In this document: positions 23,057 through 42,398 of the stretch, in pieces | Layout of the letters: the number at the start of each line of letters is the position of its first letter | Position numbering within the stretch: the first letter of the stretch is position 1 | From: Nitrospira sp. | Lineage (GTDB): Bacteria; Nitrospirota; Nitrospiria; Nitrospirales; Nitrospiraceae | Assembly: GCA_024760545.1 (NCBI GenBank) | Contig: CP060501.1 | Location: 1,835,501 to 1,899,500 of the forward strand | Length of the DNA stretch: 64,000 bases | Direction of reading: 5' to 3' | Program-made: the position numbers and the translations under genes | The notes under the pieces: model-generated | Told to the model about the DNA's origin: nothing | Database searches by the model: none | The model's input: the letters and a program-made list of their open reading frames with translations, nothing else

Positions 23057-23360
23057 GAGGTCACCTCCTCGCTCGGCTATCGATGCCCACTCTACTCAGA
23101 CGTTCCACACCAGGCTACCGGCCAGCTTTTTATCACGTAGATCCAGCACGTAACGCAATTGCGTTCCAACTCTTCAAATGGAGAGCACCATATCCAATCG
23201 AGCAGGTGAGAGAAAGACATTCCACATGTTGCCGCATCAGAGGCAGTGCGGGCCTCATGGTGAAGACACCGAAGGTGGTCCGTAGCGGCCGCGAGTATAC
23301 CAAGCAGCATGGTAACTGGCTACCTTGACAAAGCTCGAAACCGGGTGCTACCACCGTCGC
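23057..23360. other. Divergent promoter interval
   Basis: About 300 bp between the divergent membrane-protein and methyltransferase genes. The only structured element I see is the perfect palindrome AACGCAATTGCGTT at 23152-23165, about 96 bp upstream of the minus-strand gene, which could be an operator. Confidence 0.4.
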
Positions 23361-24137
23361 ATGGTAAAGTCCGATCATTCTCCCTTGGCACAAGATCCTC
23401 AGGCTCCGGCAAAAGTGGTCTCGACTTGGTCCGGACAAGCCCGCGAGGATGCCGTGCAGCGAATGTTCACGGCCATCGCGGGTGTGTATGACCTGAACAA
23501 CACCCTCTTGAGCTTCGGCCTGCACTACCGCTGGAAGAAAATGACGGCTTCCTATGTTGCCCCGGTCGAACAAGGCGTGGGGCTTGATGTAGGGTCCGGC
23601 ACGGCGGACCTCGCCCTGCTCCTCCAGCCACGCATGGGCAGCAAGGGGCGTGTGATTGCGTCCGATCTCAATTATGCAATGCTGGCTGAAGGCAGTAAGA
23701 AGGTGGGGAGCAGGGGTCTGGCAGATAAGATCTCGTGTTTACAAGCAAGCGCGGAACATTTGGGATTCGCCGACAATACGTTCGATGCGGTCACAACCGG
23801 CTTTTGCATGCGGAATGTCGGGGATTTGCCGCAAGCCGTAAGAGAAATCCGCCGGGTGATGAAATCCGGAGGCCGCTTCGTGTGTCTTGAGTTTTCACGT
23901 CCGGTGTTCGGCTGGCTTCGGGCTCTGTATGATTGGTACTCCTTTACGCTCCTGCCCTGGGTCGGCACGAAGGTCGCTCGGGACACCACCGGTGTCTATG
24001 AGTATCTTCCTGCGTCGATCCGAACATTTCCCGATCAGCAGCGGCTGTGCCAGATCCTCCGTGAGGCCGGCTTCAGCCACGTATCGTACAAAAACCTCAG
24101 CGGCGGAATTGTCGCCATTCATATCGCAACGAAATGA
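23361..24137 (+). CDS. ubiE: UbiE/MenG quinone C-methyltransferase
   Basis: A 258-aa class I SAM methyltransferase that methylates demethylmenaquinone or the ubiquinone precursor. Landmarks are RMFTAIAGVYDLNNTLLSFG, the SAM loop GLDVGSGTADLALLL, DLNYAML, VTTGFCMRNV, GGRFVCLEFS and the C-terminal YEYLPASIRTFPDQ, all family features. An ATG at 23361 is taken as start; an in-frame TTG at 23325 would add 12 residues and neither has a strong ribosome site. Given the inferred host it probably serves menaquinone (menG). It is followed after 10 bp by a radical SAM gene and may head the 23361-30051 block. Confidence 0.9.
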   Translation: MVKSDHSPLAQDPQAPAKVVSTWSGQAREDAVQRMFTAIAGVYDLNNTLLSFGLHYRWKKMTASYVAPVEQGVGLDVGSGTADLALLLQPRMGSKGRVIASDLNYAMLAEGSKKVGSRGLADKISCLQASAEHLGFADNTFDAVTTGFCMRNVGDLPQAVREIRRVMKSGGRFVCLEFSRPVFGWLRALYDWYSFTLLPWVGTKVARDTTGVYEYLPASIRTFPDQQRLCQILREAGFSHVSYKNLSGGIVAIHIATK

Positions 24138-24147
24138 GTGCTGAGTA

Positions 24148-25773
24148 GTGGACTCGATTCTGTACATTTTTCTCCCGTGTAAGAAGGTCTATCCCATCGG
24201 GATCACTTACCTAGCGGACTTTATCCATCGACGGAAACCGGAAGTCAGACAGCGAATTCTGGATCTCTCGCTGTTTCCCGTCTCGCGACGGAGTCAAGCG
24301 ATCCGCGATGCCGCCACGGAGTTCAAGCCGGATCTGGTCTGCTTCTCCTGGCGCGACATTCAGATCTTTTCGCCGCATGAAGGTGATTCCTCGCTGGAAC
24401 ATGCGTTTAACTTCTATTTTGCCAGCAACCCCTTCAAGCGAATCACGGCGTCGATCGAAGGCGTCAAGCAGCTCTACCGCTACTACAATCACATCTATAC
24501 GATCCTGTCGTACCCGTGGCTGATCCGCAAAGAGTTTCCAAAGTCCCAGATCATGATCGGGGGCGGCGCGTTTACAGCCTTTGCCGATCAATTGATCGAA
24601 AAGCTCCCGGAAGGGACAATCGGGATTCTCGGTGAGGGAGAGGACGCCATCCTCAAGGTCATCGAAGGCCGTTCGATTGAGGATGAACGATATATCGTCA
24701 AAGAAGGGAAACAGATCCGGAAAGGCCGGCAGGGCTCACCCGCGCTTCTTGATGCTCTGACGGTCGATTTACCCTATCTCACCTCGATCTTTCCTCAGTA
24801 CGGTGAATACATCGGTGAGTCGATTGGCGTGCAGTCCAAACGAGGCTGTCCCTATGATTGCGCCTTCTGCCTCTATCCCTACATTGAGGGCAAGCGAGTC
24901 CGCTACCGGCCGCCCGACATGGTCGTCAAGGACATCGCCCAGCATTATCATCAATGGGGTGCCCGTCGCTTCTGGTTCACTGATGCCCAGTTCATTACGG
25001 GGAGGGAAGCCTATCCTCAATGCACCGAAATCCTCGAACGGATCGTCGCTGAAAAACTCGAGATCGAGTGGTCTGGCTACATCAGAACATCGTTGATTAC
25101 ACCGGAGCTGGCCAAGCTGATGGTCCGATCGGGCGTGGGTGACCTGGAGGTGGCCATCACCTCCGGCTCACAAGAGGTGCTGAACAATCTGCACATGGGA
25201 TTTAAGCTGGAACGCCTGTACGATGGCTGTCGATACCTGGCAGAGGCCGGCTTCAAGGGCAAGGTCATCCTGAACTATTCACTCAACAGTCCCAAGGAAA
25301 CGGAAGAGAGTCTTCTCCAGAGTGTCGAGGCCTACAAAAAAGTCGCCTCAATCCTAGGGGAAGCGCGTGTCTTTCCGCTCATGTTCTTTCTGGGCATCCA
25401 GCCGAATACCGACCTGGAACAGCGGCTGCTGGAGGAGGGATACTTGTCAGCGGGCTATAATCCCTTGATGTTGACCCCGACCAGCATCAGGAAGCTGCTC
25501 TACAATCCCGCCCCTCTCAATAAGATCATCGCCAAGGCCTGTCTTCGAGCCTGGGAACGCAAGCATGGTAGCCGCGATCCCCGTCGATGGACAGGATCTC
25601 TCTCTCAGTCCACCGGTGAATCACCTACCTATGCCGATCAGAACCTCAGCAAGGGCATTGAGGGTAATTCGGGTCGCGACGCCCTCCTCTCGCTTGAGGA
25701 AATCCTCCGCTCCCGTCGACCGGTTCCCTCTCCTTCACAGACGGCCGAACCACGGGCCAGCTCAGCCGGTTGA
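24148..25773 (+). CDS. B12-binding-type radical SAM protein
   Basis: A 541-aa protein that starts at GTG 24148. The N-terminal 190 residues resemble the cobalamin-binding fold of BchE-like enzymes (MDSILYIFLPCKKVYPIGIT, KPDLVCFSWRD, IMIGGGAFTAF, GILGEGEDAILKV). The radical SAM core carries the 4Fe-4S motif RGCPYDCAFCLYPY (C-x3-C-x2-C) near residue 235, followed by WFTDAQFIT, VGDLEVAITSGSQEVL and KVILNYSLNSPKE. No DxHxxG cobalamin motif is obvious, so B12 use is uncertain. The C-terminal 60 residues are low-complexity and look disordered. The substrate is unknown. It lies 10 bp behind ubiE and upstream of two PCP_red-domain genes. Confidence 0.85.
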   Translation: MDSILYIFLPCKKVYPIGITYLADFIHRRKPEVRQRILDLSLFPVSRRSQAIRDAATEFKPDLVCFSWRDIQIFSPHEGDSSLEHAFNFYFASNPFKRITASIEGVKQLYRYYNHIYTILSYPWLIRKEFPKSQIMIGGGAFTAFADQLIEKLPEGTIGILGEGEDAILKVIEGRSIEDERYIVKEGKQIRKGRQGSPALLDALTVDLPYLTSIFPQYGEYIGESIGVQSKRGCPYDCAFCLYPYIEGKRVRYRPPDMVVKDIAQHYHQWGARRFWFTDAQFITGREAYPQCTEILERIVAEKLEIEWSGYIRTSLITPELAKLMVRSGVGDLEVAITSGSQEVLNNLHMGFKLERLYDGCRYLAEAGFKGKVILNYSLNSPKETEESLLQSVEAYKKVASILGEARVFPLMFFLGIQPNTDLEQRLLEEGYLSAGYNPLMLTPTSIRKLLYNPAPLNKIIAKACLRAWERKHGSRDPRRWTGSLSQSTGESPTYADQNLSKGIEGNSGRDALLSLEEILRSRRPVPSPSQTAEPRASSAG

Positions 25774-25969
25774 TCTTTCTTCGGACATTCTTGTTGGATT
25801 ACACCGTTTAGCTTGTCTCTTGTCCATCCGCGGTGCCTTGCATTCCAGTTTCAGCCGGTGCTATCATTTGCCTTCTTCATAGAGTGGAGTGGTACGTTAA
25901 TCGTTTGGATTTTCATACAATTACACGCGTTAGCCCCTAATCAAGATCGCGCCTTAAGGAGGCGCCTCA

Positions 25970-28036
25970 ATGTATAAGACCATCTATATTCCGGTCGACA
26001 ATTCCGACCATTCCAATTCAGCAGTGGATGTCGGCGTTCACCTGGCCAAAACCTTCGGCTCCAAGATCGTGGGAAGCCATGTCTATGCGGCAAAAATGCA
26101 TGACAAACGCTTCAAACAGATGGAAGCCGGCTTACCGGAAGAATATCACGATGAAAAAGAACTCGACCGTCAGCGCCAGATTCATGATTCGCTGATCACC
26201 CGCGGACTCCAAATCATCACCGATTCCTATCTCGACTACGTTGATAAGAAATGTACCGAAGCGAATCTCCCGATCGAGCGGCGATCGCTCGAAGGGCGAA
26301 ATTGGAAGGTGCTGGCTGAGGATATCAATACCAACGGGTATGACCTCGTCATCATGGGGGCACTGGGGGTCGGAGCGGTCAAAGACAGTGTGATCGGCAG
26401 CAATACCGAACGCGTTGTCCGCCGAGTCCGAAATTCCGACATGCTCATCATCAAGAACATTCAGCCCTTGAATGGCGGCAAAATCGTGGTGGCTGTCGAT
26501 GGCAGCCCCTACTCGTTCGGCGGACTGATGACGGGTCTCGCTCTCGGCAAAGCGTTCAATATGCCGGTTGAGGCGATTTCAGCATTCGACCCCTATTTTC
26601 ACTACGCCGCGTTCCACAGCATTTCCGGGGTTTTAAACGAGGAAGCCGGCAAGGTGTTCCGCTTCAAAGAACAGGAAAAACTGCACGAAGAAATTATCGA
26701 TAGCGGCCTGGCCAAGATCTACCAGTCTCATCTGGACATTTCTCGTGAAATAGCCCAAGCCGAGCAAACCGATGTGAAAACGACGTTGCTCGACGGCAAG
26801 GCCTTCGAAAAAATCATTCAGTATGTCCGCAAGGATGTCCCAGCCTTGCTGATTGTCGGGCGCATCGGGGTCCATAGCGACGAGGACATGGACGTCGGCA
26901 GCAACACGGAAAACCTGCTCCGCAGTGCACCTTGTAACGTGCTGATCTCCAACCGCAAGTATGTTCCACCGATCGATACGCAAGCCGAGTACACGATCGC
27001 CTGGACCGAAGAAGCGCTACGGCGGATGGAGAAGATCCCCGTCTTCGCACGAGGGGTCGCTAAAACGGCCATTCATCGATATGCCATTGAAAAAGGCCAT
27101 ACGATCATCAGTAACACCGTGGTGGATGCCGCAGTCGGACACATCCTGCCCAAAGGCGCGATGGATGCCATGCGGGCGCTCGGTGGCAGCCTGGATGCGG
27201 CTGGTATCGACCGCGACAAGATGCAGGCCGACGAGGCTGTCACGAAAGATCTCATGGGCCCGACGTTGAGCGGGATTATGACCCAGATCGTCGAGGAGAA
27301 GCCGAAACAGATCGATGCCTCCACCCAAGCCTACTTGGACCGCATGGGTCAAAACTATTTTGTCTGTGACGGCTGCGGGTACATCGGGAAGGGCGACGCG
27401 CCGGTCAGATGTCCCGTGTGCAGTGCGGATGGGACGAAATTCAAACAGGTCGATAAGAAGATCTTCGAAGTGGCAGCGACGGCTGAAGGCGATCTGGAGA
27501 CAGATGTCGCGTACGATGACGTGCCGATGCAATGGACCAAGGACGCGAAAGAAGCCATCCGCGCGGTACCGGCCGGCTTTCAACGGAGGCGTGCGAAGGC
27601 CAGAATTGAGAAGAGCGCGCGGAAGCTGGGCATGACGACGATCACGCTTGAATATGCAGCACCGATGATCAAGGAAGCGGCTGCCGAAGACTATACCCCC
27701 ATTTTTTCAAATAAGGGTACCGGCACATCGCCTGCCGCGGAAGCCACGCTTACAGCCGCAAATGAGAATGGCGCGAACGGCCACAGTGAAGCGACATCAC
27801 GGTATTCCTGGACAGAGGACGCACAGGCCAGATTGGATCGGGCTCCGGAAGGTTTCATGCGTGATTGCACCAAGGCACTGATTCTCAAGCATGCCGAGAA
27901 AATTGGAGCGACCGTGATTACCATTGAGGTCGCAAATGAAGGTATCGAACAGGCCAAGGGATACATGGCGGAAGCCATGAAGACCGGTAATCTCAAGGAC
28001 ATGATCGCCAACCTCACCGGTAAGACCAGTACCTAG
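25970..28036 (+). CDS. Usp-Usp-PCP_red-rubredoxin-like-PCP_red-PCP_red fusion protein
   Basis: A 688-aa soluble protein with a strong AAGGAGG site. Two universal stress domains come first: 1-165 (IYIPVDNSDHSN, MGALGVGAVKDSVIGSNTE) and 170-330 (VVAVDGSPYSFGG, VGRIGVHSDEDMDVGSNTEN). Then a PCP_red domain (about 340-392: AWTEEALRRMEKIPVFAR), a two-CxxC metal knuckle (about 462-490: CDGCGYIG and CPVCSADG) like rubredoxin or a zinc ribbon, and two more PCP_red domains at about 519-568 (QWTKDAKEAIRAVPAGFQRR) and 611-665 (SWTEDAQARLDRAPEGFMRD). PCP_red is otherwise known from the C-terminus of BchB/ChlB. Three copies with paired Usp domains in one chain suggest a scaffold or redox/ligand sensor. Function is unknown. 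Confidence 0.85.
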   Translation: MYKTIYIPVDNSDHSNSAVDVGVHLAKTFGSKIVGSHVYAAKMHDKRFKQMEAGLPEEYHDEKELDRQRQIHDSLITRGLQIITDSYLDYVDKKCTEANLPIERRSLEGRNWKVLAEDINTNGYDLVIMGALGVGAVKDSVIGSNTERVVRRVRNSDMLIIKNIQPLNGGKIVVAVDGSPYSFGGLMTGLALGKAFNMPVEAISAFDPYFHYAAFHSISGVLNEEAGKVFRFKEQEKLHEEIIDSGLAKIYQSHLDISREIAQAEQTDVKTTLLDGKAFEKIIQYVRKDVPALLIVGRIGVHSDEDMDVGSNTENLLRSAPCNVLISNRKYVPPIDTQAEYTIAWTEEALRRMEKIPVFARGVAKTAIHRYAIEKGHTIISNTVVDAAVGHILPKGAMDAMRALGGSLDAAGIDRDKMQADEAVTKDLMGPTLSGIMTQIVEEKPKQIDASTQAYLDRMGQNYFVCDGCGYIGKGDAPVRCPVCSADGTKFKQVDKKIFEVAATAEGDLETDVAYDDVPMQWTKDAKEAIRAVPAGFQRRRAKARIEKSARKLGMTTITLEYAAPMIKEAAAEDYTPIFSNKGTGTSPAAEATLTAANENGANGHSEATSRYSWTEDAQARLDRAPEGFMRDCTKALILKHAEKIGATVITIEVANEGIEQAKGYMAEAMKTGNLKDMIANLTGKTST

Positions 28037-28111
28037 TCCTGAGGACGTGGTGCTGAGTGTGCCTTTACATATAACTCAGAATTCAACCCTCGATACTCAG
28101 CACTAGACACC

Positions 28112-29497
28112 ATGGGCAAATCTCTTCCCATCTTCAACGGTCCTTCGTCTCAGAGCGCCCTGAGTTCACTGCAACAGCAAATTGCTCAATTTTTTACCCC
28201 AGCCCCGAAGGGGGAAGGGCCATTCGACGGTCGGACGGTTGACGACTTCAAGCCCTATCTCGTCGCGCTGAACTTGACCAAGCGTTGTAACCTCAAATGC
28301 AACCACTGCTATCTCGATGCGACGACCAAAGCAGCGGGCGGAGAGGACGAGCTAAGCACCGAAGAATGCTACCGGCTGATCGATCAGATTGCGGAAGTGA
28401 ATAAGGGGTGCCTCCTCGTCATCACGGGAGGCGAGCCGTTGGTCCGGCCGGATATCCTCGACATCGCCCGTTACGCCGTCAAGCTCGGTTTCATGGTGGT
28501 CTTTGGCACAAACGGCATGCTGATCAACGACCACCTGGCCAAGACCCTCGTGGAGATCGGTGTGATGGGTGTCGGCATCAGTATTGATTCATTGCAGGCA
28601 GCCAAACACGACGCCTTCCGGGGCGTGCCAGGAGCCTGGGAAGCTGCGGTGGCGGGTATTGAGGCCAGCAAGCGGAATGGCCTCCAATTTCAAGTGCATT
28701 TCAGCGCGCAGCCGATGAATTATAAGGAGCTGCCCGACGTCATTGACTGGGCGCATCGGCTCGGAGCCCGCGTATTGAACGTCTTTTTCATGGTGTGTAC
28801 GGGACGAGGCGAGGAACTGACTGATATCACGCCCGCTCAGTATGAAGAAGTGCTCGGGTATCTCGTTGAATGCCAAGATAATTACAAGGGCATGTTAGTG
28901 CGTGCCCGCTGTGCACCACACTTCAAACGGCTGGCCTATGAAAAGGACCCTAACTCCCCGATTACCAAGGCAACCGGATACATGGGGGGAGGGTGCCTCG
29001 CCGGAACGAACTACGCCAGGGTGACGCCCAACGGTGAATTGACGCCCTGTCCCTATATGCCGCTGTCCGCCGGAAATTTGCGTCAACATAGTTTCGTCGA
29101 TCTCTGGGAGCGATCGGACATCTTCAACTCGTTCCGGTACCCTCAGCTCAAGGGAAAATGCGGCGACTGCGAATACAGTGACATCTGCGGGGGCTGCCGC
29201 GCCCGCCCCTATGTCGACCACGGGGACTGGCTGGATGAAGATCAGTGGTGCCTGTACACGCCAAAGGGTGGAGAGAAAATCAAGGTGGCGTTCAATGTTT
29301 CCGAAGAGTCTGAAACTGCTTGGGATGACGCTTCAGCGCTCAGGTTGAGCCGTATCCCCTACTTTCTACGCGCCATGGTCAAGAAGGGTGTGGAGAAGCA
29401 TGCCCGTGAAAACAATATCCCGCTCATCACCGTCGAATTGATGGAGGAACTGCGCAAGAAGCGATTCGGCAACGATGCGCCTGTCTTTAAGTTCTAG
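28112..29497 (+). CDS. Radical SAM/SPASM protein with C-terminal PCP_red domain
   Basis: A 461-aa protein of the NirJ/AhbD/PqqE-like SPASM group. The core motif is TKRCNLKCNHCYLD (C-x3-C-x2-C, about residue 60), then ITGGEPLVRPDI, VFGTNGMLI, GVGISIDSL. The SPASM region supplies further Cys: GGGCLAGTNY, LTPCPYMPLS, KCGDCEYSDICGGCRARP. After about residue 395 a separate module reads AWDDASALRLSRIPYFLRAM, VEKHARENNIPLITVELMEE, which is a PCP_red domain like those of the preceding gene. Heme or heme d1 biosynthesis enzymes are the nearest named relatives, but the fused domain sets it apart. The gap to the previous gene is 75 bp. Confidence 0.85.
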   Translation: MGKSLPIFNGPSSQSALSSLQQQIAQFFTPAPKGEGPFDGRTVDDFKPYLVALNLTKRCNLKCNHCYLDATTKAAGGEDELSTEECYRLIDQIAEVNKGCLLVITGGEPLVRPDILDIARYAVKLGFMVVFGTNGMLINDHLAKTLVEIGVMGVGISIDSLQAAKHDAFRGVPGAWEAAVAGIEASKRNGLQFQVHFSAQPMNYKELPDVIDWAHRLGARVLNVFFMVCTGRGEELTDITPAQYEEVLGYLVECQDNYKGMLVRARCAPHFKRLAYEKDPNSPITKATGYMGGGCLAGTNYARVTPNGELTPCPYMPLSAGNLRQHSFVDLWERSDIFNSFRYPQLKGKCGDCEYSDICGGCRARPYVDHGDWLDEDQWCLYTPKGGEKIKVAFNVSEESETAWDDASALRLSRIPYFLRAMVKKGVEKHARENNIPLITVELMEELRKKRFGNDAPVFKF

Positions 29498-29541
29498 CCG
29501 TGGATTTCGTGCGCTTCACCCTTCACGCATAACCCTCACCT

Positions 29542-30051
29542 ATGGATACCCTTCAAAGCGTCACCACCGATCTCAACATCCTGATCCCCATCGTCAACCA
29601 CTGGTTTCACCTGCTTTCAGCAATCATTTGGATCGGCGGCCTGGCATTTCTCGTCATGGCGGTCACACCCGGATTGAAGAAGGCGGTTTCGAAAGATCAG
29701 ATCAAGCCCATCACAGATGTTTTTTATCAGCATTATAAAAAGGTCGCCGGTGGTCTCTTGGTCGTGCTGCTGTTCACCGGGGGTGTGAACCTCCACTACG
29801 TCAATCAGGTCCTGATCTCGCAAACCGGCGCCGGCGTTCAGCACCACTCCAAGTACCTGATGGTCTTCATGATTAAGCTTCTCCTCGTATTGGGGCTTCT
29901 CACGCTATTTCTCTATACCGTCATTTTCAAATCTGAAGACGAAGCCGACGACACGGAATCGTATGAGGCTATTCCCTTCCAGCGAGCGGCTCTGTGGATG
30001 GGGTTCTTCATCATTCTGTGCGCCGCCGCCATGAAACATCTGCACCAGTAG
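29542..30051 (+). CDS. CopD-like four-helix membrane protein
   Basis: A 169-aa integral membrane protein with four clear hydrophobic segments (about 18-40, 65-85, 105-130 and 145-165). Conserved-looking His residues sit near helix ends (NHWFHLLSAIIWIGGLAF, LHYVN, MKHLHQ), as in CopD and HemJ-like proteins that bind heme or copper. WFHLLSAIIWIGG is characteristic of the CopD-like group. It closes the plus-strand block, 44 bp after the radical SAM gene. A b-type cytochrome or a metal/heme-handling role is an inference from the His placement. Confidence 0.75.
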   Translation: MDTLQSVTTDLNILIPIVNHWFHLLSAIIWIGGLAFLVMAVTPGLKKAVSKDQIKPITDVFYQHYKKVAGGLLVVLLFTGGVNLHYVNQVLISQTGAGVQHHSKYLMVFMIKLLLVLGLLTLFLYTVIFKSEDEADDTESYEAIPFQRAALWMGFFIILCAAAMKHLHQ

Positions 30052-30222: not shown

Positions 30223-30972
30223 TTATTTCAGGCCCAGCGCCCGTTTGAAGACCGATTTGAAGCCGAAGTAGCCGAAGGAGTCTTTGAGGTTGGAATAGAG
30301 CCGCTTCACGGTACCCATCTCCGGGTTGGTGACGTACTCCATCGTCAAGGCGATCCGCTCTTCCCCCTCCCCGAGTGGTGTGACGGCATGCCAGAGCTTA
30401 TCACCGTTGAAAATCACCATATCACCAGGTTCAGTGACCAGTTCAAGATGACGCGGCTGCTTGGTCGGGTGGTCCTTGAACAACTCACAGACCAGTTTGC
30501 AATGAGTAGACCGATCGACAAGCCCCATCAGGATCGTATAACGCGCGCCTTTATAATAGGACGTGTCGTAGTGGAAACCGATATGGTCACCCGGTTCGGT
30601 GTAGTAGTAGAGGGCGCATGAATGGGGATCGTTGTCGGGGCAAAACATGAGCTTCGCATCAACGAGCCGATTTAAGAACTCTCTGAAAGATTCGGCACGG
30701 TAGAGATCGAGAAAGCGTGGAGCCTTCTCCTGCACCGTATAGTAACTGACGCTCCCGCCTTTCTTATGACCGGGAATGTAATTGCGATTGAGTTCCCCTT
30801 TGACACCCTGGGCCTGGGGAACGAGCACTTCCTCTACAAAGGCGCGGGGCAAGAATTGCTTGATAACTAAGAACTCGTTTTGCTCCCAATACTCTTGGCG
30901 GAGACGAGCGAAATCCAATGCAGCGACCGCCTGGTCGACAGCTTCCATTACCATGTTCTCGTGAACGATCAT
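30223..30972 (-). CDS. 2OG-Fe(II) oxygenase family protein
   Basis: A 249-aa soluble protein of the 2-oxoglutarate/iron oxygenase fold. The iron triad can be read as HYD in DHIGFHYDTSYYKGARYT plus the distal His in KLWHAVTPLGEGEER, followed by an Arg (ERIALTME) that would bind 2-oxoglutarate. The first 60 residues (FLVIKQFLPRAFVEEVLVP) are the usual helical lead. Two further in-frame ATGs (30954, 30948) could be the real start. The substrate is unknown. It lies convergent with the membrane protein at 29542 and upstream of lolA on the same strand. Confidence 0.8.
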   Translation of the reverse strand: MIVHENMVMEAVDQAVAALDFARLRQEYWEQNEFLVIKQFLPRAFVEEVLVPQAQGVKGELNRNYIPGHKKGGSVSYYTVQEKAPRFLDLYRAESFREFLNRLVDAKLMFCPDNDPHSCALYYYTEPGDHIGFHYDTSYYKGARYTILMGLVDRSTHCKLVCELFKDHPTKQPRHLELVTEPGDMVIFNGDKLWHAVTPLGEGEERIALTMEYVTNPEMGTVKRLYSNLKDSFGYFGFKSVFKRALGLK

Positions 30973-34309: not shown

Positions 34310-34981
34310 TCACAACGGGACTGAGGGTGCTGTGTGCCGAATAATCTTGCCTTCCACCAAATAGACCACCAGCTCAGCGATATTGGTGGCATGATCGGCC
34401 ACCCGTTCAAGATATTTTGCGATAAAGCTCAACCGGATGGCACGGGTAATTGTGGGAGGATCCTCGATCATAAAGGAGAGCAGCTCACGAAATAACTGTT
34501 CCATCAGATCATCGACAAAATCGTCATCCGTGAGCACTTTTCTGGCCAGATTGGCATCTTCTTTGATGAACGCGTCGATGCTTTCTTTCACCATCCTCCG
34601 CGCAAGACTTCCCATCCTCGGAATATCGATGTACGGCTTCAGCTGCGGCTCTTCGTTCAATTCGATCGCACGTTCAGAGACGTTCTCAGCGAGATCGCTG
34701 ATTCGTTCGAGTTCGGTCGAGATTTTCATGGCCGTGGTGACCAATCGTAGGTCACGCGCGGCTGGCTGGTGAAGCGCCAACAACTCGATGCAGGCTTCGT
34801 CGATCTCCACATCCATCGCATTCACTTTGTGGTCGCGCTCGATCACCCGGCAGGCCAGAGCCGAATCGCGTGTGACCAACGCGGTCAACGCCTTGTCGAT
34901 CTGATCCTCAGCGAGACCGGCCATCCGCGCCAGCTTCGTCTTCAATTCCGCGAGTTCTTCGTCGAAATGTCGCTGAGCCAT
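34310..34981 (-). CDS. phoU: Phosphate transport system regulator PhoU
   Basis: PhoU links Pst transporter state to the PhoR kinase. The 223-aa product shows both repeated three-helix PhoU units: LARMAGLAEDQIDKALTAL with MKISTELERISDLAENVSER, and MVKESIDAFIKEDANLARKV with FIAKYLERVADHATNIAELV. The E/D-x3-D-x2-N metal motifs are present in both. It sits 4 bp behind pstB and ends the pst operon. Confidence 0.95.
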   Translation of the reverse strand: MAQRHFDEELAELKTKLARMAGLAEDQIDKALTALVTRDSALACRVIERDHKVNAMDVEIDEACIELLALHQPAARDLRLVTTAMKISTELERISDLAENVSERAIELNEEPQLKPYIDIPRMGSLARRMVKESIDAFIKEDANLARKVLTDDDFVDDLMEQLFRELLSFMIEDPPTITRAIRLSFIAKYLERVADHATNIAELVVYLVEGKIIRHTAPSVPL

Positions 34982-34985
34982 CGGG

Positions 34986-35864
34986 TCACCCGAATCGTCC
35001 GGTAATATAGTCTTCCGTCTGCTTCTTCGCAGGGTTGGTGAACAGCTGCTTGGTACGACCGAACTCGACTAGTTGACCGAGGTACATGAACGCCGTCCAG
35101 TCCGACACCCGTGCCGCTTGTTGCATGTTGTGCGTCACGATGACGACGGTCAACTCCTTCTTCAGTGAAAATAACAATTCTTCGATGATCCCGGTGGCAA
35201 TCGGATCCAGCGCGGAACAGGGCTCATCCATCAGCAGGACGTCCGGCTTGACCGCCAAGGCCCGTGCAATACAGAGTCGTTGCTGCTGACCGCCGGACAA
35301 ACCAAGAGCGCTCTTGTGGAGTCGGTCTTTCACTTCTTCCCACAAGCCGGCCCCTTTGAGGCTTCTTTCGACGATGTCTTCCAACACCGACCGACTCTTC
35401 AAGCCTTGCAGTCGTGGGCCATAGGCGACATTTTCATAGATAGACTTGGGAAAGGGATTGGATTTTTGAAACACCATGCCCACACGCTTTCGAAGGTCTG
35501 TAATATCGATCGCCGGGTTAAAGATATCGATGCCGTCGAGGAGGATATTTCCTTCGTGCCGCGCTCCCTCGATGAGGTCATTCAGGCGGTTCATGCAGCG
35601 GAGCAATGTGGATTTTCCACAGCCTGAAGGCCCAATGAACGCGGTCACATGATTTTCTGGAATCTCCAGTTCGATCTTGAACAGCGACTGAACCGGACCG
35701 TAGAAAAAGTTGAAGCCCTGCACCTGAAGTTTGGCCGGCTGTTGTGCAACACTATGATGCGACATCTTGGAATCACTCGGCTCCATACTCTCCATCTCCA
35801 GTGAGGAAGAAGGGGGTGCGAGGGGAGGGACACTGGACATCACTTCATACTGCTGATCCAGCAT
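34986..35864 (-). CDS. pstB: Phosphate ABC transporter ATPase PstB
   Basis: A 292-aa ABC ATPase. Walker A is [20 protein letters not shown], the Q-loop is [14 protein letters not shown], the signature [16 protein letters not shown], Walker [13 protein letters not shown] and the H-loop [10 protein letters not shown]. The N-terminal 40 residues are a poorly conserved extension, so one of the internal ATGs (for example the MSHHSV one) may be the true start; ATG 35864 overlaps the pstA end by 20 bp. It lacks membrane segments and acts with PstA/PstC. Confidence 0.94.
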
Positions 35865-37260
35865 ATTTCCTCCTCATCCGATTTCTCAAGACGACGCCCG
35901 TCAGATTAAGCGTCACGACCACAAGAATCAATACCAATGTGGTCACATAGACCATAGGCTTGGCCGCCTCAACATTCGGCGATTGGAAACCTACATCATA
36001 GATATGAAAGCCCAAGTGCATGAACTTTCGATCCAAATGAAGAAACGGCCATGTCCCGTCTATCGGCATAGCTGGCGCTAGTTTCACCACACCGGTCAAC
36101 ATCAAGGGCGCGACCTCGCCGGCCGCACGGGCCATGGCGAGGATCAGTCCTGTGAGAATGCCGGGGAGCGCCGTAGGGAGCACGACCTTCCACATCGTTT
36201 CCCATTTTGTCGCACCCAAACCGATCGATCCCTCTCGGTATTCTCGCGGCACTGCAGCAAGTCCCTCTTCGGTTGCGACGATCACGACCGGAACGGTCAG
36301 CAGCGCGAGTGTCAAAGAGGCCCAAAGGATACCACCCGTGCCGAACGTGGGAGACGGCAGCCGTTCGGAAAACCACAGCGCATCCAACGTGCCGCCTACG
36401 CCATACACAAGGAATCCCAATCCAAACACACCGAAGACGATCGAAGGAACCCCTGCGAGATTGTTGACCGCGATCCGGACAATCCTCACAATGACTCCTT
36501 GACGGGCATACTCCCTGAGATACAGGGCACCGATCACGCCAAAGGGGGTTACCACGAAACTCATGATGATGACCATCATGACGGTGCCGAAAATTGCGGG
36601 GAAGATCCCACCCTCGGTGTTAGCCTCACGCGGCTCCGTGGTCAGGACCGTCCAGACATTACCGATGTAAATCCAAATCTTGTCCAAGGTCGAAAGATCG
36701 TTGGGTCGAAACACGCGCATGACTTGATCAAGCAAAAGAGATTTCTCTTTCCCATTTGCGTCGATAGCAAGCACCGTATATGGATTCTCAGCCTCGCTTG
36801 ATCCCGCATGCCGAAGAAGCGGAGGTAAGGACTGCCACACGGCATCCGCACCCTCGGCCACGACCTGTTCTTCTTTCAAGAGGGTCCGTAGGCGTCCATA
36901 GAAGTTGCCCCACTCACGTCGTTCCACCATGACAAGATCGACCGGTTTCGTCCGCTCAACGATCTGATCGGTGTTGATCCACCGATAATCCAACCCATAG
37001 AGATCACGATTGCCAATCTTCATCCTGATTCGCGGGATGCCTTTCGGACCAACTTCCTCACCGGCCAACTGACCGATCACATGTTTTCCATCCTTCAGCG
37101 TCAATTCGACGAGGTCAGCCGGCCAGAAATACCCGAACCCGTTGACGAGGATAAGAACCAGGAGCCCCCCAATCATGAGGAGCGAAAGAGAAAGACCTGC
37201 GCCGCAACTCCAAATGAAGAGCTCACCGCTAGCCATAAAATGCTTGAACCACAGTTTCAT
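35845..37260 (-). CDS. pstA: Phosphate ABC transporter permease PstA (long form)
   Basis: A 471-aa permease, longer than the roughly 290 aa of E. coli PstA. One membrane segment near residues 15-40 is followed by a soluble periplasmic region (about 45-205; [35 protein letters not shown]-like) and then the canonical six-helix permease with the coupling motif [20 protein letters not shown] near residue 340. Similar long PstA/PstC forms are known from Pseudomonas. The ATG at 37260 is used; an in-frame GTG at 37290 would add 10 residues and has no better ribosome site. It lies between pstC and pstB. Confidence 0.9.
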
Positions 37261-37351
37261 AGAATTATTCGTGCACCAGTTTGCCGTCACTCTTTGAACG
37301 GCTTGCTTCTAACTGCCGGTCTAGAACTGCGCCCCGTGAAATCCGGTCGCT

Positions 37352-39673
37352 CTAGAACTGACTGTACTTTGCCCTGAGCCGTTGTCGAATCACTTCTGCC
37401 GCCGTGTTGAGAACAAAGGTAGCAACAAACAGGAGCAACCCCGCCAAAAAGAGCGTGCGATACAAGGTCCCGCCGTGCGGAGCTTCAGGAATCTCCACGG
37501 CAATATTCGCGGAGAGCGTTCGAAACCCGTTGAATAGACTCCAGTCCATGATCGGTGTATTGCCGGTGGCCATCAGGACAATCATGGTTTCTCCGACAGC
37601 CCGGCCTAGCCCAATCATCAGAGCCGAGAAGATCCCCGGGCTGGCTGAGATCAGGACCAGATGCGCAAGCGTTTGCCACCGCGTCGCACCAAGCGCCAAG
37701 GAACCAGCGATGAGATTCTTGGGAACATTGGAGAGGGCTTCTTCCGAGATGCTGTAGATGATAGGAATGATCGCAAACCCCATAGCCACGCCGACCACGA
37801 TGGCATTTCGCTGGTCGTAATTTAGCCCGAGATGCGTTTCCAGCCATGGCTTATAGTGTCCACCGAACAAGAGCGATTCCCACCATGTGTTAGTCTCCAG
37901 ACACCCCCAGACTACGGCAATGATGACCGGCATCATAAGCAACGCCTCGACGCCCGGCCGGACACGATGGCGAAGGGAGGCGGGCAGCATCAAATAGAGC
38001 CCGGCAGAGGCAAGGATGGCCACAGGAATGACAAGAACCATGGCCGTCATAGCGGGAAAGTTCCGCTCCAGAACAGGGGCAAACCAGAGTCCGGCAAGAA
38101 ATCCTAGGACCACAGTTGGAAGCGCCGCCATAATTTCAATCGCGGGCTTGATCTTCGCACGGAGATTCGGATGCATGAACATCGCCGTATAAATCGCGGC
38201 CAGCACCGACAACGGGACTGCGAGTAATACCGCATAGAAGGTGCCCTTCACCGTGCCAAAGATAAGAGGGGTCAAGCTGAACTTTGGCTCAAAGTCGTCG
38301 GATCCGCTCGATGACTGCCATACAAGCGCCGGCCGATCATATCCTTCATACCAGACCGGAGAAAACAAGGTTCGCCATGTGATCTCTGGATGGAGATTAC
38401 GGATCTGGTACTGAACCAGCCGATCATTCTCGGACAGGCTGACGAGTCCGTCCGCTTTCGGGGAAAAATAGGTATTGCGAAGCAGCCCCTGTTGCGGAGT
38501 AAGAGTCAGCAACGTTTGTTCAGACGTCGAATGATGCAGCCGGATTTCCCCTCCGGCATCGGTAGTAATAAAGCCTTTGTCACGCTGGGAAATCGTAATG
38601 TCAGTGACTGGACCCGACTGAGAGGCGAACCGATGGATCATTCTCATATGGGTGGTGTTCGTTCCAGGGTGTTCCCGCACCGGTGTCCACACGGCAATCT
38701 TCCCTGACGCGTTGCCGACAACAAGACTTCGATCCCCCATCAAGTAGGCAAGTGCGGTAATCGCTTCGCCTTTCTCGGAAGCCTGAGTTGTCTCTACCAC
38801 AACAGGATGAGCAGGTTCCCGAATATCGAGCTGATATAATCTCCCCTCTTCGGTTCCCACCGAAAGGATTTCAGCGCGACTCCCGAGCGTGAAGGCCGTG
38901 ATTCGACCGGGTATACTGGATGTTAGGTCGACCTGCGTGATCGACGACTCGCTGGTTCCATCAGGGCGTGATGTGCTCCGGCTCGTGGTCAGCCAGAGAT
39001 GTAGGTCTTCCAGGAGCGCGACGATTCGAGCATCGGATTCCGTGCTCTGATAGGCCAGTTTTGTGATCGCTTGTGGAACCGGTGCGGCAAGAACCGGAGC
39101 CATGACGGTGACTACCGGGGAGATCGAGCGTTCGTTACCCATAAATTCGTGAACGAATTCGATCGCCACCGGAATGACCTGCCCATCCCCTGTGCCCATA
39201 GCCAGATTGTGCCCTTTCCCGAAGGCACGCGCTAATGCTGTAACAGACGCATCTGGCAGCAAGGCACGCGACGGAAACTTTGACGACGTATGAGCCGTCC
39301 CTCCTAAGAAGACAAAATCAAGAGAATCACCGCGTAGCACATAGGCGACCTCTTGCTGTTCATCGATTCCAATGATGGCGACAGAAAACGAGCGATCTAA
39401 AGGTGAGAGGGAAATCGGCTCAGACAATGTTGCGCGGGTTGGCTGAAAAAGCGGGATGACTTCCTTGACCAGAAACACACACATCCCGAGAATACAAAGG
39501 ATAATGCCGATGCCGCCGGCTTTGATGATGAAGCCCGTAAGCCGATCCGTGATGGTCCTGATCCGGCGGCGGCTGATCACTCCGCCGACGAGGGCAGGGG
39601 TGGGAAAAGATCCCCCGCTCATCGATGGTTCCCCTTGAACCGCAGGTATCGGAGTAAATGGCGGCACTTTCAT
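37352..39673 (-). CDS. pstC: Phosphate ABC transporter permease PstC with large periplasmic domain
   Basis: A 773-aa permease. After a cytoplasmic head and a first membrane segment (about 55-75) comes a large soluble region of about 370 residues containing beta-propeller-like repeats (ITALAYLMGDRSLVVGNASG, then VTDITISQRDKGFITTDAGG, each followed by a K/R-I-x-V/L-W/H strand). The C-terminal 290 residues are the normal PstC membrane domain with EEALSNVPKNLIAGSLALGA as coupling motif and the final GLLLFVATFVLN. ATG 39673 follows AGGAT; a longer in-frame start (39727) is rejected because its extra residues are Arg-rich and not conserved-looking. The extra domain could gate or sense phosphate in the periplasm. 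Confidence 0.9.
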   Translation of the reverse strand: MKVPPFTPIPAVQGEPSMSGGSFPTPALVGGVISRRRIRTITDRLTGFIIKAGGIGIILCILGMCVFLVKEVIPLFQPTRATLSEPISLSPLDRSFSVAIIGIDEQQEVAYVLRGDSLDFVFLGGTAHTSSKFPSRALLPDASVTALARAFGKGHNLAMGTGDGQVIPVAIEFVHEFMGNERSISPVVTVMAPVLAAPVPQAITKLAYQSTESDARIVALLEDLHLWLTTSRSTSRPDGTSESSITQVDLTSSIPGRITAFTLGSRAEILSVGTEEGRLYQLDIREPAHPVVVETTQASEKGEAITALAYLMGDRSLVVGNASGKIAVWTPVREHPGTNTTHMRMIHRFASQSGPVTDITISQRDKGFITTDAGGEIRLHHSTSEQTLLTLTPQQGLLRNTYFSPKADGLVSLSENDRLVQYQIRNLHPEITWRTLFSPVWYEGYDRPALVWQSSSGSDDFEPKFSLTPLIFGTVKGTFYAVLLAVPLSVLAAIYTAMFMHPNLRAKIKPAIEIMAALPTVVLGFLAGLWFAPVLERNFPAMTAMVLVIPVAILASAGLYLMLPASLRHRVRPGVEALLMMPVIIAVVWGCLETNTWWESLLFGGHYKPWLETHLGLNYDQRNAIVVGVAMGFAIIPIIYSISEEALSNVPKNLIAGSLALGATRWQTLAHLVLISASPGIFSALMIGLGRAVGETMIVLMATGNTPIMDWSLFNGFRTLSANIAVEIPEAPHGGTLYRTLFLAGLLLFVATFVLNTAAEVIRQRLRAKYSQF

Positions 39674-39796
39674 ATCCTGACTGCGACTCCTCTCCCCGAT
39701 ACGGCCGCATTGCCATCTGTCCTGCATTTCTCACAGGGGAGTGAGCGATCATGTGCCCTTCACGATGACCATATTCCTGACAGCTTGGCGTGAAAC

Positions 39797-40789
39797 CTAT
39801 TCGACTTTCGGCAATTCCTTTTCGATCATGGCCTGAGGGAGCGGAAAGAAGCCATCCTTGATCACGATGGCTTGTCCTTCTTTGCTATAGATAAACTTGA
39901 TAAACTCCCGCACGAGTGGATCGAGCGGTTTGTTCGGCGCTTTGTTCACGTAGATCAATAGATGCCGCCAGAGGGGATATGAACCATTCATGGCGTTTTC
40001 CTGCGTAGGGGCAATAAAGGGCCCCCCTTCTTTTTCGGCCAATGAAAGGACCCGCACACCGGACGTCAAATAGCCGATACCGCTGTAGCCGATGCCTGCA
40101 GGATCCTCCGTGATACCCTGCACGACGGAGGCGGACCCTGGTTGTTCCTTGACCTCATCCTTATAGTCGCCGTTTTTCAGCGCATACTCTTTGAAAAACC
40201 CGTAGGTGCCGGATGCCGAGTTGCGGCCATAGATGCTGATCGGCAATGCCGCCACTTCGCCTGTAACACCAAGCTGAGTCCATCGTTCCAGGTTTTCCTG
40301 TGCGCCGCGTCGACGCGTCTTGGAAAAGATCCCATCAATTTGCGCCATCGTGAGTCCCTGAACCGAGTTGTCTTTGTTGACGTAGACTGCTAGCGCATCG
40401 ATGGCGACGGGAAAAGCGGTGGGCTTATATCTGAACTTTCTTTCAAAGGCATCGACCTCGGTATTTTTCATCGTTCGGGACATCGGCCCCAGTAGAGCCG
40501 TTCCTTCGATTAGGGCCGGAGGGGCTGTGCTCGATCCCTTGCCTTCGATTTGGATTTTGACCTGAGGATATTGTTTGCGAAAACCTTCGGCCCAGAGCGT
40601 CATCAGGTTATTGAGCGTGTCCGAACCGATACTGTTGACATTCCCTGATACCCCGCTGACTTTGACATAGCCTTTTAAGGCCGAGTCCAGCACGATGGCA
40701 TCATCGGCATAGACCGATGGGATGACGGAAGCAAGAGCCCCAAGGAGGGCGAAACACGATAAGCCAGACTTGGCAGCTGATATATTCAT
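39797..40789 (-). CDS. pstS: Phosphate-binding protein PstS
   Basis: The periplasmic phosphate receptor, 330 aa. ATG 40789 has AAAGGA at 6 bp; the frame extends to 40840 but upstream ATGs lack a ribosome site. A signal peptide (cleavage near VYADD) precedes the mature chain, with phosphate loops VSGNVNSIGSDTLNNL, EGKGSSTAPPAL and GRNSASGTYGFF plus GPMSRTMKNTE. It heads the pst operon. A four-unit PHO-box-like array ends 39 bp upstream, with TATTGT as a plausible -10 at 40819-40814. Confidence 0.94.
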   Translation of the reverse strand: MNISAAKSGLSCFALLGALASVIPSVYADDAIVLDSALKGYVKVSGVSGNVNSIGSDTLNNLMTLWAEGFRKQYPQVKIQIEGKGSSTAPPALIEGTALLGPMSRTMKNTEVDAFERKFRYKPTAFPVAIDALAVYVNKDNSVQGLTMAQIDGIFSKTRRRGAQENLERWTQLGVTGEVAALPISIYGRNSASGTYGFFKEYALKNGDYKDEVKEQPGSASVVQGITEDPAGIGYSGIGYLTSGVRVLSLAEKEGGPFIAPTQENAMNGSYPLWRHLLIYVNKAPNKPLDPLVREFIKFIYSKEGQAIVIKDGFFPLPQAMIEKELPKVE

Positions 40790-40828
40790 AGACAGTCCTT
40801 TCATAGTCTCTACACAATAGTCTCGTTC

Positions 40829-40868
40829 TGTTATCAGCACGTTACCGCAGTGTTACAGGCGTGTTACG
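40829..40868 (-). promoter_or_regulatory. Candidate PHO box array of pstS (four units, 11-bp period)
   Basis: On the plus strand units TGTTATC, CGTTACC, TGTTACA and TGTTACG start at 40829, 40840, 40851 and 40862, exactly 11 bp apart; on the pstS strand they read GATAACA/GGTAACG/TGTAACA/CGTAACA. Seven-base direct repeats with 4-bp spacers and an 11-bp period are the hallmark of PhoB/PhoP sites. A -10-like TATTGT begins 9 bp after the array on the pstS strand, as in activated pho promoters. Confidence 0.7.
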
Positions 40869-40944
40869 TCCTGCCTGGTTCAGGTCCTCCGCCGCTCTTT
40901 TCTCGGACAGACCGCTTGCCACCCAATGCTGAATCGACCATTTG

Positions 40945-42300
40945 TCAAAAATTCCACTGCAGCTGCGTACGGACAATATCTCCCTCCCGGATCAGATAGG
41001 GCGCAGTTTGTGTATCCGTGCGCCTAGTCCTGGCGTACGCAATCGTGAACTCTAAGGCCCTGGCAAGTTGGTATTCCACGCCAATTTCCCATTCCCGGAC
41101 GACATTGAAGGGTGCATTGGTTCGATGCTTCTTCCCCCCGTCGTATTCTTGCCAACGCACATACGGTATGATGGTCATCCACTTATAGTCCCACTTGTAC
41201 ATGGCCTGGACGTAGCCTCCCTGGATGTTGCCATCTACAATGGCTGTTTGCGTGGCGTTCAACTGAGGACCGTGGCCCCAGTTCCATTCGGCTTGGAGGC
41301 CGAATGGTTGAGGATACAGAATAAAATGCACACCGACTCGTTCATCAAGGTAATTGCCCTTATTTTCAACTTGGGGTATACCCCCGGGAAGGTTGGTCCC
41401 TGAAAGAGTCCCAATATTCGCAGCCCCGACATTGAACGATCCACGGTATGCATCGACTCCAAACTCCACAATCTGCCCATACGGCAATTCAAGGGGATAG
41501 GTAGAATGCAGGACGATATGTTTATTGTCATTTCGTTCCGAAATATTGATGGTTTGGCCGTTATAGACCCCAACGCCCAATATGCCGTAGTCTCCAGATC
41601 CTTTCAGACCTGAATCGACCAGTCTCCGGAATAGTTTTCTCGTCTCAGCGGGTGTGTAGTAGATAAAAAACCCAAGGTCGCGTTCGCCATTCACCGCACT
41701 ATTGATGCCATCGCTTCGGTCCAAGGCAATTCGTTGTTGACTAGATTGAAGAGTTTCCCACCCGAACGGAACCTTTGATAATCCGGCTCGAATACGCAAT
41801 TCCTTTTCCGCGAAGAATAGGAAAGGCACGGGCAAAAAGATGTCGGTATAGGCATCGCGGAGTTGGACAAAGTTATTATTCGCATCGGTGTTTGTCGTGC
41901 CTGGAACAACGGTTGCAAATTCGGGTTGCAAATAAAAGGACAGCCAATCCGTGATGTCCCCTGAAAAGATCAGGCGGGCGCGGCGGAAATTGAAGCCCGT
42001 ATTATCCTTTATCGTGCTATCGTACTCGCTCCGTATGGATTTGTCTCCGGGCAGGTACGTATAACGAAACTGCAAATAGCCTCGTATACTGATCTTGTCG
42101 AACCATTTCTTAATCGTTGCTCGGTCTTGAATGATCGCTTCTTTTTTTTCCTCATCGGCTTTCAGCTTGAGCCATTCTTCTTTCGTGATCTGGCCTTTCT
42201 CGTACAGGAGATCCTCAATAGCGGCTTGTGCCACATTGGCCTGAACGATCCCGGCGAGACTAATTACACACACCGTAACTGCGAACCACCATCTCTTCAT
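40945..42300 (-). CDS. Phosphate-selective porin (OprP/OprO type)
   Basis: A 451-aa outer-membrane porin. ATG 42300 (GAGGAGG upstream) opens a signal peptide with cleavage near AQAAI. A short helix follows (IEDLLYEKGQITKEEWLKLK) and then a beta-barrel with alternating aromatic strands, the OprP-type SIRGYLQFRY and FNFRRARLIFSGDITDWLSFYLQPEF motifs, and a terminal aromatic residue (QLQWNF). Family knowledge plus the neighbouring pst operon support phosphate or polyphosphate uptake. It shares its ITKEEWL helix with the porin at 44122-45684. A PHO-like repeat lies upstream. Confidence 0.88.
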   Translation of the reverse strand: MKRWWFAVTVCVISLAGIVQANVAQAAIEDLLYEKGQITKEEWLKLKADEEKKEAIIQDRATIKKWFDKISIRGYLQFRYTYLPGDKSIRSEYDSTIKDNTGFNFRRARLIFSGDITDWLSFYLQPEFATVVPGTTNTDANNNFVQLRDAYTDIFLPVPFLFFAEKELRIRAGLSKVPFGWETLQSSQQRIALDRSDGINSAVNGERDLGFFIYYTPAETRKLFRRLVDSGLKGSGDYGILGVGVYNGQTINISERNDNKHIVLHSTYPLELPYGQIVEFGVDAYRGSFNVGAANIGTLSGTNLPGGIPQVENKGNYLDERVGVHFILYPQPFGLQAEWNWGHGPQLNATQTAIVDGNIQGGYVQAMYKWDYKWMTIIPYVRWQEYDGGKKHRTNAPFNVVREWEIGVEYQLARALEFTIAYARTRRTDTQTAPYLIREGDIVRTQLQWNF

Positions 42301-42398
42301 TAAACTTCCTCCTCTCGGTTTTCGGCGCATATTCGCACTGTGCATGGAGTGCGATTGTGAACACGGCGCCGAGATATAGAGGGCCCCGATTAAGATGG

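Follow-up and report, generated by a model that had tools for sequence, protein, structure and literature searches.

The five co-directional genes at positions 23361-30051 of the window, i.e. the whole 64-kb stretch of the Nitrospira sp. genome that was analysed, are two neighbouring gene sets and not one system. Module 1 (23361-25773) consists of mpqE and a gene for a B12-binding radical SAM protein, and module 2 (25970-30051), a so far undescribed set built around a radical SAM protein, of genes for a Usp/PCP_red protein (UspPCP), a radical SAM protein with a PCP_red domain (rSAM-PCP) and a CopD-like membrane protein; the two modules happen to be neighbours in the Nitrospiraceae. On balance we favour a joint reading in which module 1 would methylate the ring of methyl-plastoquinone (mPQ), and module 2 would be the maturation system of the cytochrome bd-like oxidase. 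The features of the array are:

23361-24137, plus strand: mpqE, C-methyltransferase of mPQ synthesis, UbiE superfamily (NF052510 401.5 bits, PF01209 231 bits)
24148-25773, plus strand: B12-binding radical SAM protein of the slr0320 group, probable mPQ ring C-methyltransferase (NF045585 444.8 bits; adjoins mpqE)
25970-28036, plus strand: UspPCP, with two Usp domains, three PCP_red domains and a rubredoxin-like RUBY_RBDX domain (domain search)
27002-27133, plus strand: UspPCP PCP_red domain 1 (54.3 bits)
27533-27652, plus strand: UspPCP PCP_red domain 2 (41.6 bits)
27809-27934, plus strand: UspPCP PCP_red domain 3 (34.9 bits)
28112-29497, plus strand: rSAM-PCP, with Radical_SAM, SPASM and C-terminal PCP_red domains, NirJ2/AhbD branch (TIGR04055 323 bits, TIGR04545 321 bits)
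29321-29455, plus strand: rSAM-PCP PCP_red domain (53.0 bits)
29542-30051, plus strand: CopD-like four-helix membrane protein, the Nitrospiria form of the third gene of module 2 (NF033808 34.9 bits, PF05425 21.1 bits)

Window coordinates of the PCP_red domains are genome coordinates minus 1835500. ORF finding re-derived the five genes of the first-pass annotation with their gaps of 10, 196, 75 and 44 bp, in order, and the domains reported there (Ubie_methyltran; B12-binding and Radical_SAM; Usp/PCP_red; Radical_SAM and PCP_red) all matched. The first gene starts with ATG at 23361, its frame being open from a TTG at 23325, and the second with GTG at 24148. A scan for promoters and terminators gave sites no more numerous than in shuffled sequence and is therefore uninformative on operon structure. 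The full five-gene order is retained in other Nitrospiraceae genomes (loci L041-L045 and L047), and since it is kept at protein identities of about 64-95% it is more than chance.

The row had initially been taken for a single system, one that makes a modified quinone or tetrapyrrole. The quinone part suits genes 1-2 and the tetrapyrrole part genes 3-5, but they do not form one pathway. In two near-complete genomes outside the Nitrospiraceae, mpqE lies 1.5 Mb (G081) and 366 kb (G137) from the rSAM-PCP gene; there the ubiE-type gene sits in an unrelated unit, and the one-pathway reading is therefore unsupported. A joint quinone-and-tetrapyrrole cofactor pathway would account for the order conserved in the Nitrospiraceae, where mpqE and rSAM-PCP lie no more than 8 kb apart in 29 genomes, and for a further locus (L092) in which the B12/radical SAM gene adjoins UspPCP, and quinone and oxidase do serve one respiratory chain. 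It is nevertheless very improbable, as mpqE and module 2 are unlinked elsewhere, families f6 and f14 have mpqE and the B12/radical SAM gene but no module 2, and families f7, f11, f21 and f22 have module 2 but no module 1. We rejected it on this gene distribution.

The quinone methyltransferase of module 1, first labelled UbiE, is MpqE, its NF052510 score exceeding the curated NCBIfam cut-off of 335 bits. The B12/radical SAM protein scores 444.8 bits with the slr0320 model NF045585 over residues 2-473, the next family reaching 155 bits. Like all Nitrospirota homologues it falls below the equivalog cut-off of 775 bits, which places it in the same broad family only. Its earlier description as BchE-like was loose, the BchE model (TIGR02026) giving 41.7 bits against a cut-off of 481. 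Among 148 Nitrospirota genomes, MpqE (at least 315 bits) was found in 72, of which 70 also have the B12/radical SAM protein; the latter never occurs there without MpqE. The two genes are adjacent in 66 of the 70, with gaps of 10-474 bp. Of 14 genomes used as controls, Synechococcus elongatus, which makes plastoquinone, was the only one matched by the slr0320 model, with a score above its cut-off.

The quinones of Nitrospira are exclusively mPQs, which carry both methyls of plastoquinone (PQ) plus one (PMC12324825). For the Nitrospirota mPQ pathway PMC13386864, citing Elling et al. (2025), names MpqA-E only; gene 1 of the array is MpqE by curated model, and a B12/radical SAM gene follows it. 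The B12/radical SAM protein of the array shares its domain layout with the Synechocystis protein Slr0320 (NF045585, "photosystem II high light acclimation radical SAM protein"), and the benzoquinones of Synechocystis and Nitrospira carry the same pair of ring methyls. Unlike Slr0320, the array protein scores below the equivalog cut-off, is linked to mpqE and has no photosystem to serve. The Synechocystis mutant of this gene is impaired in transfer from QA to QB; its authors describe the protein as conserved among sequenced cyanobacteria and state that a role in quinone methylation cannot be excluded (PMC8065906). From these comparisons we infer that module 1 builds the ring-methyl pattern of mPQ. 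MpqE would methylate the ring at the UbiE-type position, adjacent to the prenyl chain, and the slr0320-group enzyme would add one or both of the methyls common to mPQ and cyanobacterial plastoquinone. Since growth of the Synechocystis mutant is normal under normal light (PMC8065906), it is less likely that slr0320 alone supplies both PQ methyls.

More doubtful is a role of the B12/radical SAM protein elsewhere in mPQ synthesis, such as oxygen-independent hydroxylation of the ring, with SAM-dependent quinol methyltransferases supplying all ring methyls. BchE, a member of that superfamily, introduces oxygen derived from water. However, most B12-dependent radical SAM enzymes of the class are methyltransferases, and the family is common to makers of PQ and mPQ, whose rings share two methyls. 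Works that PMC13386864 cites, judged by their titles, deal with C-methyltransferases for quinols in cyanobacteria and with an O2-dependent PQ hydroxylase; they are in line with such a role, as is the viability of the slr0320 mutant (PMC8065906). Ring methylation is the reading with which we proceed.

The partner of module 2 lies outside the 64-kb window. For Nitrospira, the bd-like oxidase has been proposed as the terminal oxidase; it is also present in Nitrospina and anammox bacteria, and its function has been called enigmatic (PMC3578206, PMC6606698). Module 2 is found again in Nitrospinota, Proteobacteria, anammox bacteria and Poribacteria and, as expected of a maturation system, co-occurs with the oxidase. 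Among the 148 Nitrospirota genomes, 53 have both rSAM-PCP and the oxidase, 91 have neither and 4 are discordant (2 + 2). Outside Nitrospirota, co-occurrence was 18/20 versus 1/20 in controls, the one exception also having rSAM-PCP; Fisher values for this co-occurrence overstate the evidence, because the genomes are not independent. Module 2 often adjoins the oxidase genes, being physically linked to them in seven loci (L061, L094, L109, L113, L115, L121 and L123), and a PCP_red zinc-ribbon gene lies inside the oxidase cluster of the window's own genome. A functional link of module 2 to the bd-like oxidase is thus well supported. Radical SAM proteins go unmentioned in the two oxidase papers (PMC6606698, PMC3578206), and a search of a limited article collection found no paper that pairs radical SAM with this oxidase.

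Module 2 probably makes or installs a part of the oxidase, most likely a heme. The central protein, rSAM-PCP, shares the Radical SAM and SPASM domains of the heme-side-chain enzymes NirJ2 and AhbD, which are nearest to it by score and by tree. In trees it groups with NirJ2/AhbD-type sequences at 100% support (IQ-TREE, 43-sequence subset of 108), but the support for its own clade is only 0.74 / 73. Its CNLKCNHC motif and SPASM cysteines are invariant. It differs from NirJ2 and AhbD in its additional C-terminal PCP_red domain (PF08369, 48.8 bits; gathering cut-off 32.5), in scores below both cut-offs (500 bits each for TIGR04055 and TIGR04545), in forming a clade of its own and in its tie to the oxidase.

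The name PCP_red derives from BchB, a subunit of the light-independent protochlorophyllide reductase, and the C-terminal domain of BchB/ChlB (PF08369) is clearly homologous to those of the array. Unlike in BchB/ChlB, the domain here occurs in repeats and is joined to a Usp, radical SAM or zinc-ribbon part; no BchB-type nitrogenase fold was found in these PCP_red proteins. UspPCP matches PF08369 in three copies (109.5 bits) and the universal stress protein family PF00582 in two domains (112.9 bits; cut-off 24). Across Nitrospirota, Nitrospinota and Proteobacteria, its gene is in most loci the upstream neighbour of rSAM-PCP. One more PCP_red gene to be counted with module 2 (poly-PCP) lies just outside the window at C1:1900057-1901058, and is fused to rSAM-PCP in several lineages. 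These domains may hold the module 2 proteins, or a tetrapyrrole, together.

The last gene of the array had been called CopD-like, a label that survives as likeness only, the PF05425 and NF033808 scores lying below the cut-offs of 32.1 and 195 bits. Residues W21, H23 and K112 of the protein are invariant, and a fold search with its four-helix model returned only generic four-helix bundles. HemJ was considered as its identity but is not supported: there was no match to PF03653 up to E 0.1, profile comparison gave a probability of 4.7% over 18 columns, and the fold search did not point to it either. In Proteobacteria and Nitrospirota family f13 the third gene instead encodes a member of the PPOX family (HemY, TIGR00562) at 230-291 bits, well above the cut-off of 97.85; in Nitrospiria, including the window, the module lacks it. 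Unlike the housekeeping HemJ or HemY, this homologue is additional to those and clusters with rSAM-PCP: the six proteobacterial genomes tested keep a canonical HemJ and have no HemY other than the homologue of the module.

Family placement, the PPOX-like partner and PCP_red together suggest that rSAM-PCP is a tetrapyrrole-modifying SPASM enzyme, most likely one that trims or oxidises iron-porphyrin side chains. Oxidation or membrane delivery would fall to the PPOX-like or CopD-like partner. Together, UspPCP, rSAM-PCP, the CopD-like protein and poly-PCP (elsewhere with the PPOX-like flavoenzyme) would form a dedicated maturation system for the oxidase. The heme concerned may be a modified one. 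Tentatively, these proteins might make a previously undescribed heme, with side chains altered by radical chemistry, that serves as the oxygen-reducing or electron-transfer cofactor of the oxidase. Ordinary heme could suffice, since the heme b ligands of the oxidase are conserved by sequence comparison (PMC3578206).

Modification of a protein, with rSAM-PCP installing a cross-link or other change on an oxidase subunit or a Usp/PCP_red protein, is an unlikely account. It would suit the SPASM architecture, fold searches giving generic SPASM enzymes with PqqE, SkfB, SuiB and anSME as nearest solved structures, and the PCP_red repeats, whose spread over at least four linked proteins would fit a docking function. 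A peptide substrate would also agree with the sub-cut-off AhbD and NirJ2 scores of rSAM-PCP and the modest support for its clade. The HMM scores, however, favour the tetrapyrrole branch (323 and 321 bits versus 133 for mycofactocin and 107 for PqqE), and the PPOX-family partner in relatives and the domain shared with BchB point to porphyrins.

Less likely still is that module 2 provides another way of making ordinary heme b, e.g. at low oxygen, in which the PPOX-like protein makes coproporphyrin and rSAM-PCP decarboxylates coproheme like its relative AhbD. Families f2, f7, f11 and f12, in which no ferrochelatase was found, all have rSAM-PCP, but f7, f11 and f12 possess AhbAB/AhbC, and rSAM-PCP occurs besides separate AhbD-type genes in Nitrospinota and some Nitrospirota (f7 genomes). 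The window's genome (G000) has HemY and HemH and gave no TIGR04546 or PF17805 match for AhbA/B and AhbC, and we discarded rSAM-PCP as the AhbD of a siroheme route to heme here. Such a route also leaves the tie to the oxidase unexplained.

For the ring-methylation step common to mPQ and cyanobacterial plastoquinone, the B12/radical SAM gene beside mpqE offers a concrete candidate. Module 2, a gene set that travels with the bd-like oxidase across phyla, offers a direct handle on this enigmatic enzyme. If our proposal for module 2 is true, it would concern the heme of an oxidase common to nitrite oxidisers, comammox, Mn-oxidising and anammox bacteria.

The five open reading frames at window 23361-30051, their common plus strand and their gaps were confirmed by an ORF check; the genome (G000) comprises 4.81 Mb in two contigs, and its closest named relatives among carriers of the array genes are Nitrospira. 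The first gene, initially called UbiE, can be specified as MpqE, the methyl-plastoquinone (mPQ) methyltransferase (NF052510, 401.5 bits, cut-off 335). The label BchE-like for the second was not upheld, the BchE model giving only 41.7 bits versus 444.8 for cyanobacterial slr0320; by profile search it is a B12-binding radical SAM protein (B12/rSAM), with the next family at 155 bits. In domain searches the third product (UspPCP) shows a pair of Usp domains, PCP_red in three copies and a rubredoxin-like site, and the fourth (rSAM-PCP) is a radical SAM/SPASM enzyme with PCP_red at its C-terminus. The fifth is, as described, a CopD-like membrane protein; it is small, has four helices and scores under every cut-off. 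Also present are:

Window 30223-30972, minus strand: 2OG-Fe(II) oxygenase-type protein, HalD halogenase relative (32.8 bits, cut-off 26)
Window 34310-42345, minus strand: PhoU-PstB-PstA-PstC-PstS genes, then a phosphate-selective porin (PF07396)

The oxygenase-type gene is kept downstream of the array in loci L041 and L042. PstA and PstC of the window have long N-terminal extensions.

Loci around the rSAM-PCP gene were fetched from Nitrospirota genomes and homologs mapped. In the window's own family, Nitrospiraceae, the five genes stand together in every locus with a long enough contig. In family f2, of the same order, and in other families, UspPCP and rSAM-PCP are adjacent and mpqE and B12/rSAM lie elsewhere, mpqE being 1.5 Mb (G081) or 366 kb (G137) from rSAM-PCP. 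Families f6 and f14 possess mpqE and B12/rSAM (module 1) without UspPCP, rSAM-PCP and a third gene (module 2), and families f7, f11, f21 and f22 the reverse. The single five-gene system proposed in the first-pass annotation thus gives way to two modules, since mpqE is unlinked from rSAM-PCP outside Nitrospiraceae and each module occurs without the other.

Counted as present at 315 bits or above, MpqE was found in 72 of 148 Nitrospirota genomes, 70 of which also have B12/rSAM; none of the 148 has B12/rSAM without MpqE. The genes are adjacent in 66 of these 70 pairs (gap 10-474 bp), the other four being split between separate contigs of draft genomes. In a control set of 14 genomes, only Synechococcus elongatus gave a match to the slr0320 model, so that this group is common to a plastoquinone maker and to mPQ-making Nitrospirota. 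UbiE-type methylation in the ubiquinone pathway occurs beside the prenyl chain. The quinones of Nitrospira are methyl-plastoquinones only, with the two plastoquinone methyls and one beside the prenyl chain (PMC12324825). Based upon this methyl pattern, the UbiE-type position and the shared B12/rSAM family, the simplest assignment is that MpqE would add the extra methyl and B12/rSAM one or both shared methyls. In a Synechocystis slr0320 mutant QA-to-QB transfer is slowed, and its authors raised quinone methylation as a possibility; normal growth under normal light counsels caution on this role (PMC8065906).

With each species represented by a single genome, a scan detected rSAM-PCP in Alphaproteobacteria, Gammaproteobacteria, Poribacteria, anammox Brocadia/Anammoxibacter and other Nitrospirae; of 24 Nitrospinota genomes searched separately, 22 have it. 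UspPCP lies upstream in most loci of these groups. In f21 the Usp partner has no PCP_red. A further gene occurs about 0.6 kb beyond the window's right end:

G000:C1:1900057-1901058 (L039:658-1659): poly-PCP_red protein, 333 aa

It is a separate gene here. In locus L054 its counterpart has rSAM-PCP on one side and the CopD-like gene on the other, and in f13, a Chromatiales MAG, anammox bacteria and Nitrospinota a single fused gene encodes rSAM-PCP with the poly-PCP_red part at its end. In Proteobacteria and f13, rSAM-PCP is followed by a flavoprotein of the protoporphyrinogen oxidase (PPOX) family (TIGR00562 230-291 bits, cut-off 98), a place taken in Nitrospiria by the CopD-like protein. Identification of the latter as HemJ was not supported by profile comparison or fold search. 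In each of the six proteobacterial genomes tested, canonical HemJ is retained and HemY is otherwise absent; G119 and G049 carry one HemY beside ferrochelatase and a further one on the contig that holds the bd-like oxidase or module. Judging from this gene content, the PPOX-like enzyme is additional to housekeeping heme synthesis. A large NHL-repeat protein immediately follows it in f13 (L055:4595-7804). Elsewhere a conserved protein of ~245 aa follows rSAM-PCP (L062:10388-11149, L063:8451-9218, L064:10060-10791 in f21, and L123:9471-10187); the L064 copy gave no Pfam match. Genome searches of f2 (G065, G081, G125, G133 and G137) found neither PF00762 ferrochelatase nor AhbA/B/C; HemY is present in G081 and G137. 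Loci L079-L083 and similar ones, from Nitrospirota that lack mPQ genes, have an AhbD/NirJ2-type radical SAM gene without PCP_red, in many of these genomes adjoining ferrochelatase HemH.

In locus L061, module 2 neighbors a cytochrome bd-like oxidase, which is accompanied by c-type cytochromes. The order in L113 is oxidase, two cytochromes c, a cytochrome/ethylbenzene-dehydrogenase-gamma-type gene, UspPCP, rSAM-PCP and PPOX-like, and an oxidase gene is also near module 2 in L094, L109, L115, L121 and L123. Among the 148 Nitrospirota genomes, 53 have both rSAM-PCP and the oxidase, 91 neither, two rSAM-PCP alone (G002, G008) and two the oxidase alone (G018, G069), the discordant four all being assemblies of 120-470 contigs. 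Mixed families agree too, G134 being without both in f21 and only G111 having both in f22. Outside the phylum the oxidase occurs in 18 of 20 rSAM-PCP genomes versus one of 20 controls with AhbD/NirJ2-type relatives lacking PCP_red; that one is a Nitrospinota genome in which rSAM-PCP was also found. Fisher values overstate significance because genomes are treated as independent. One of four oxidase matches in G000 has a PCP_red gene at most 1.1 kb upstream, inside the oxidase cluster:

G000:C1:3381338-3381829 (L040:8339-8830): zinc-ribbon protein with two PCP_red domains

It may correspond to the 'putative zinc finger' protein that is described as conserved in the NXR/bd-like cluster (PMC3578206). 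The oxidase, termed enigmatic (PMC3578206, PMC6606698), has 14 helices and conserved heme b ligands without a quinol site (PMC3578206), and N. moscoviensis has four copies (PMC6606698). Module 2 is probably functionally linked to it. Our literature search, which was not exhaustive, found no paper joining radical SAM with cytochrome bd-like; an earlier published assignment, above all of the B12/rSAM gene, may exist.

In trees, the rSAM-PCP sequences cluster as a separate clade (FastTree support 0.74, IQ-TREE 73). Together with NirJ2 and archaeal AhbD types, this clade belongs to a larger group that has strong support and stands apart from AhbC/NirJ1; the clade and the extra C-terminal PCP_red distinguish it from these relatives. 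Its radical SAM and SPASM cysteines are kept in invariant motifs. A good AlphaFold model (mean pLDDT 80) matched generic SPASM enzymes only; the solved-structure matches listed included neither NirJ nor any Ahb enzyme. The main rival reading, that module 2 is a protein-modification system, appears unlikely; the mycofactocin and PQQ maturase models score 133 and 107 bits, NirJ2 and AhbD 323 and 321. A porphyrin is the predicted substrate on three converging grounds: placement in the tetrapyrrole branch, the additional PPOX-like enzyme, and PCP_red, a domain also found in protochlorophyllide reductase. Given this convergence, and a heme oxidase as partner, we propose that module 2 would make or deliver a heme, probably altered in its side chains, to the bd-like oxidase, with modified heme as a tentative candidate for its product, at a little under even odds.
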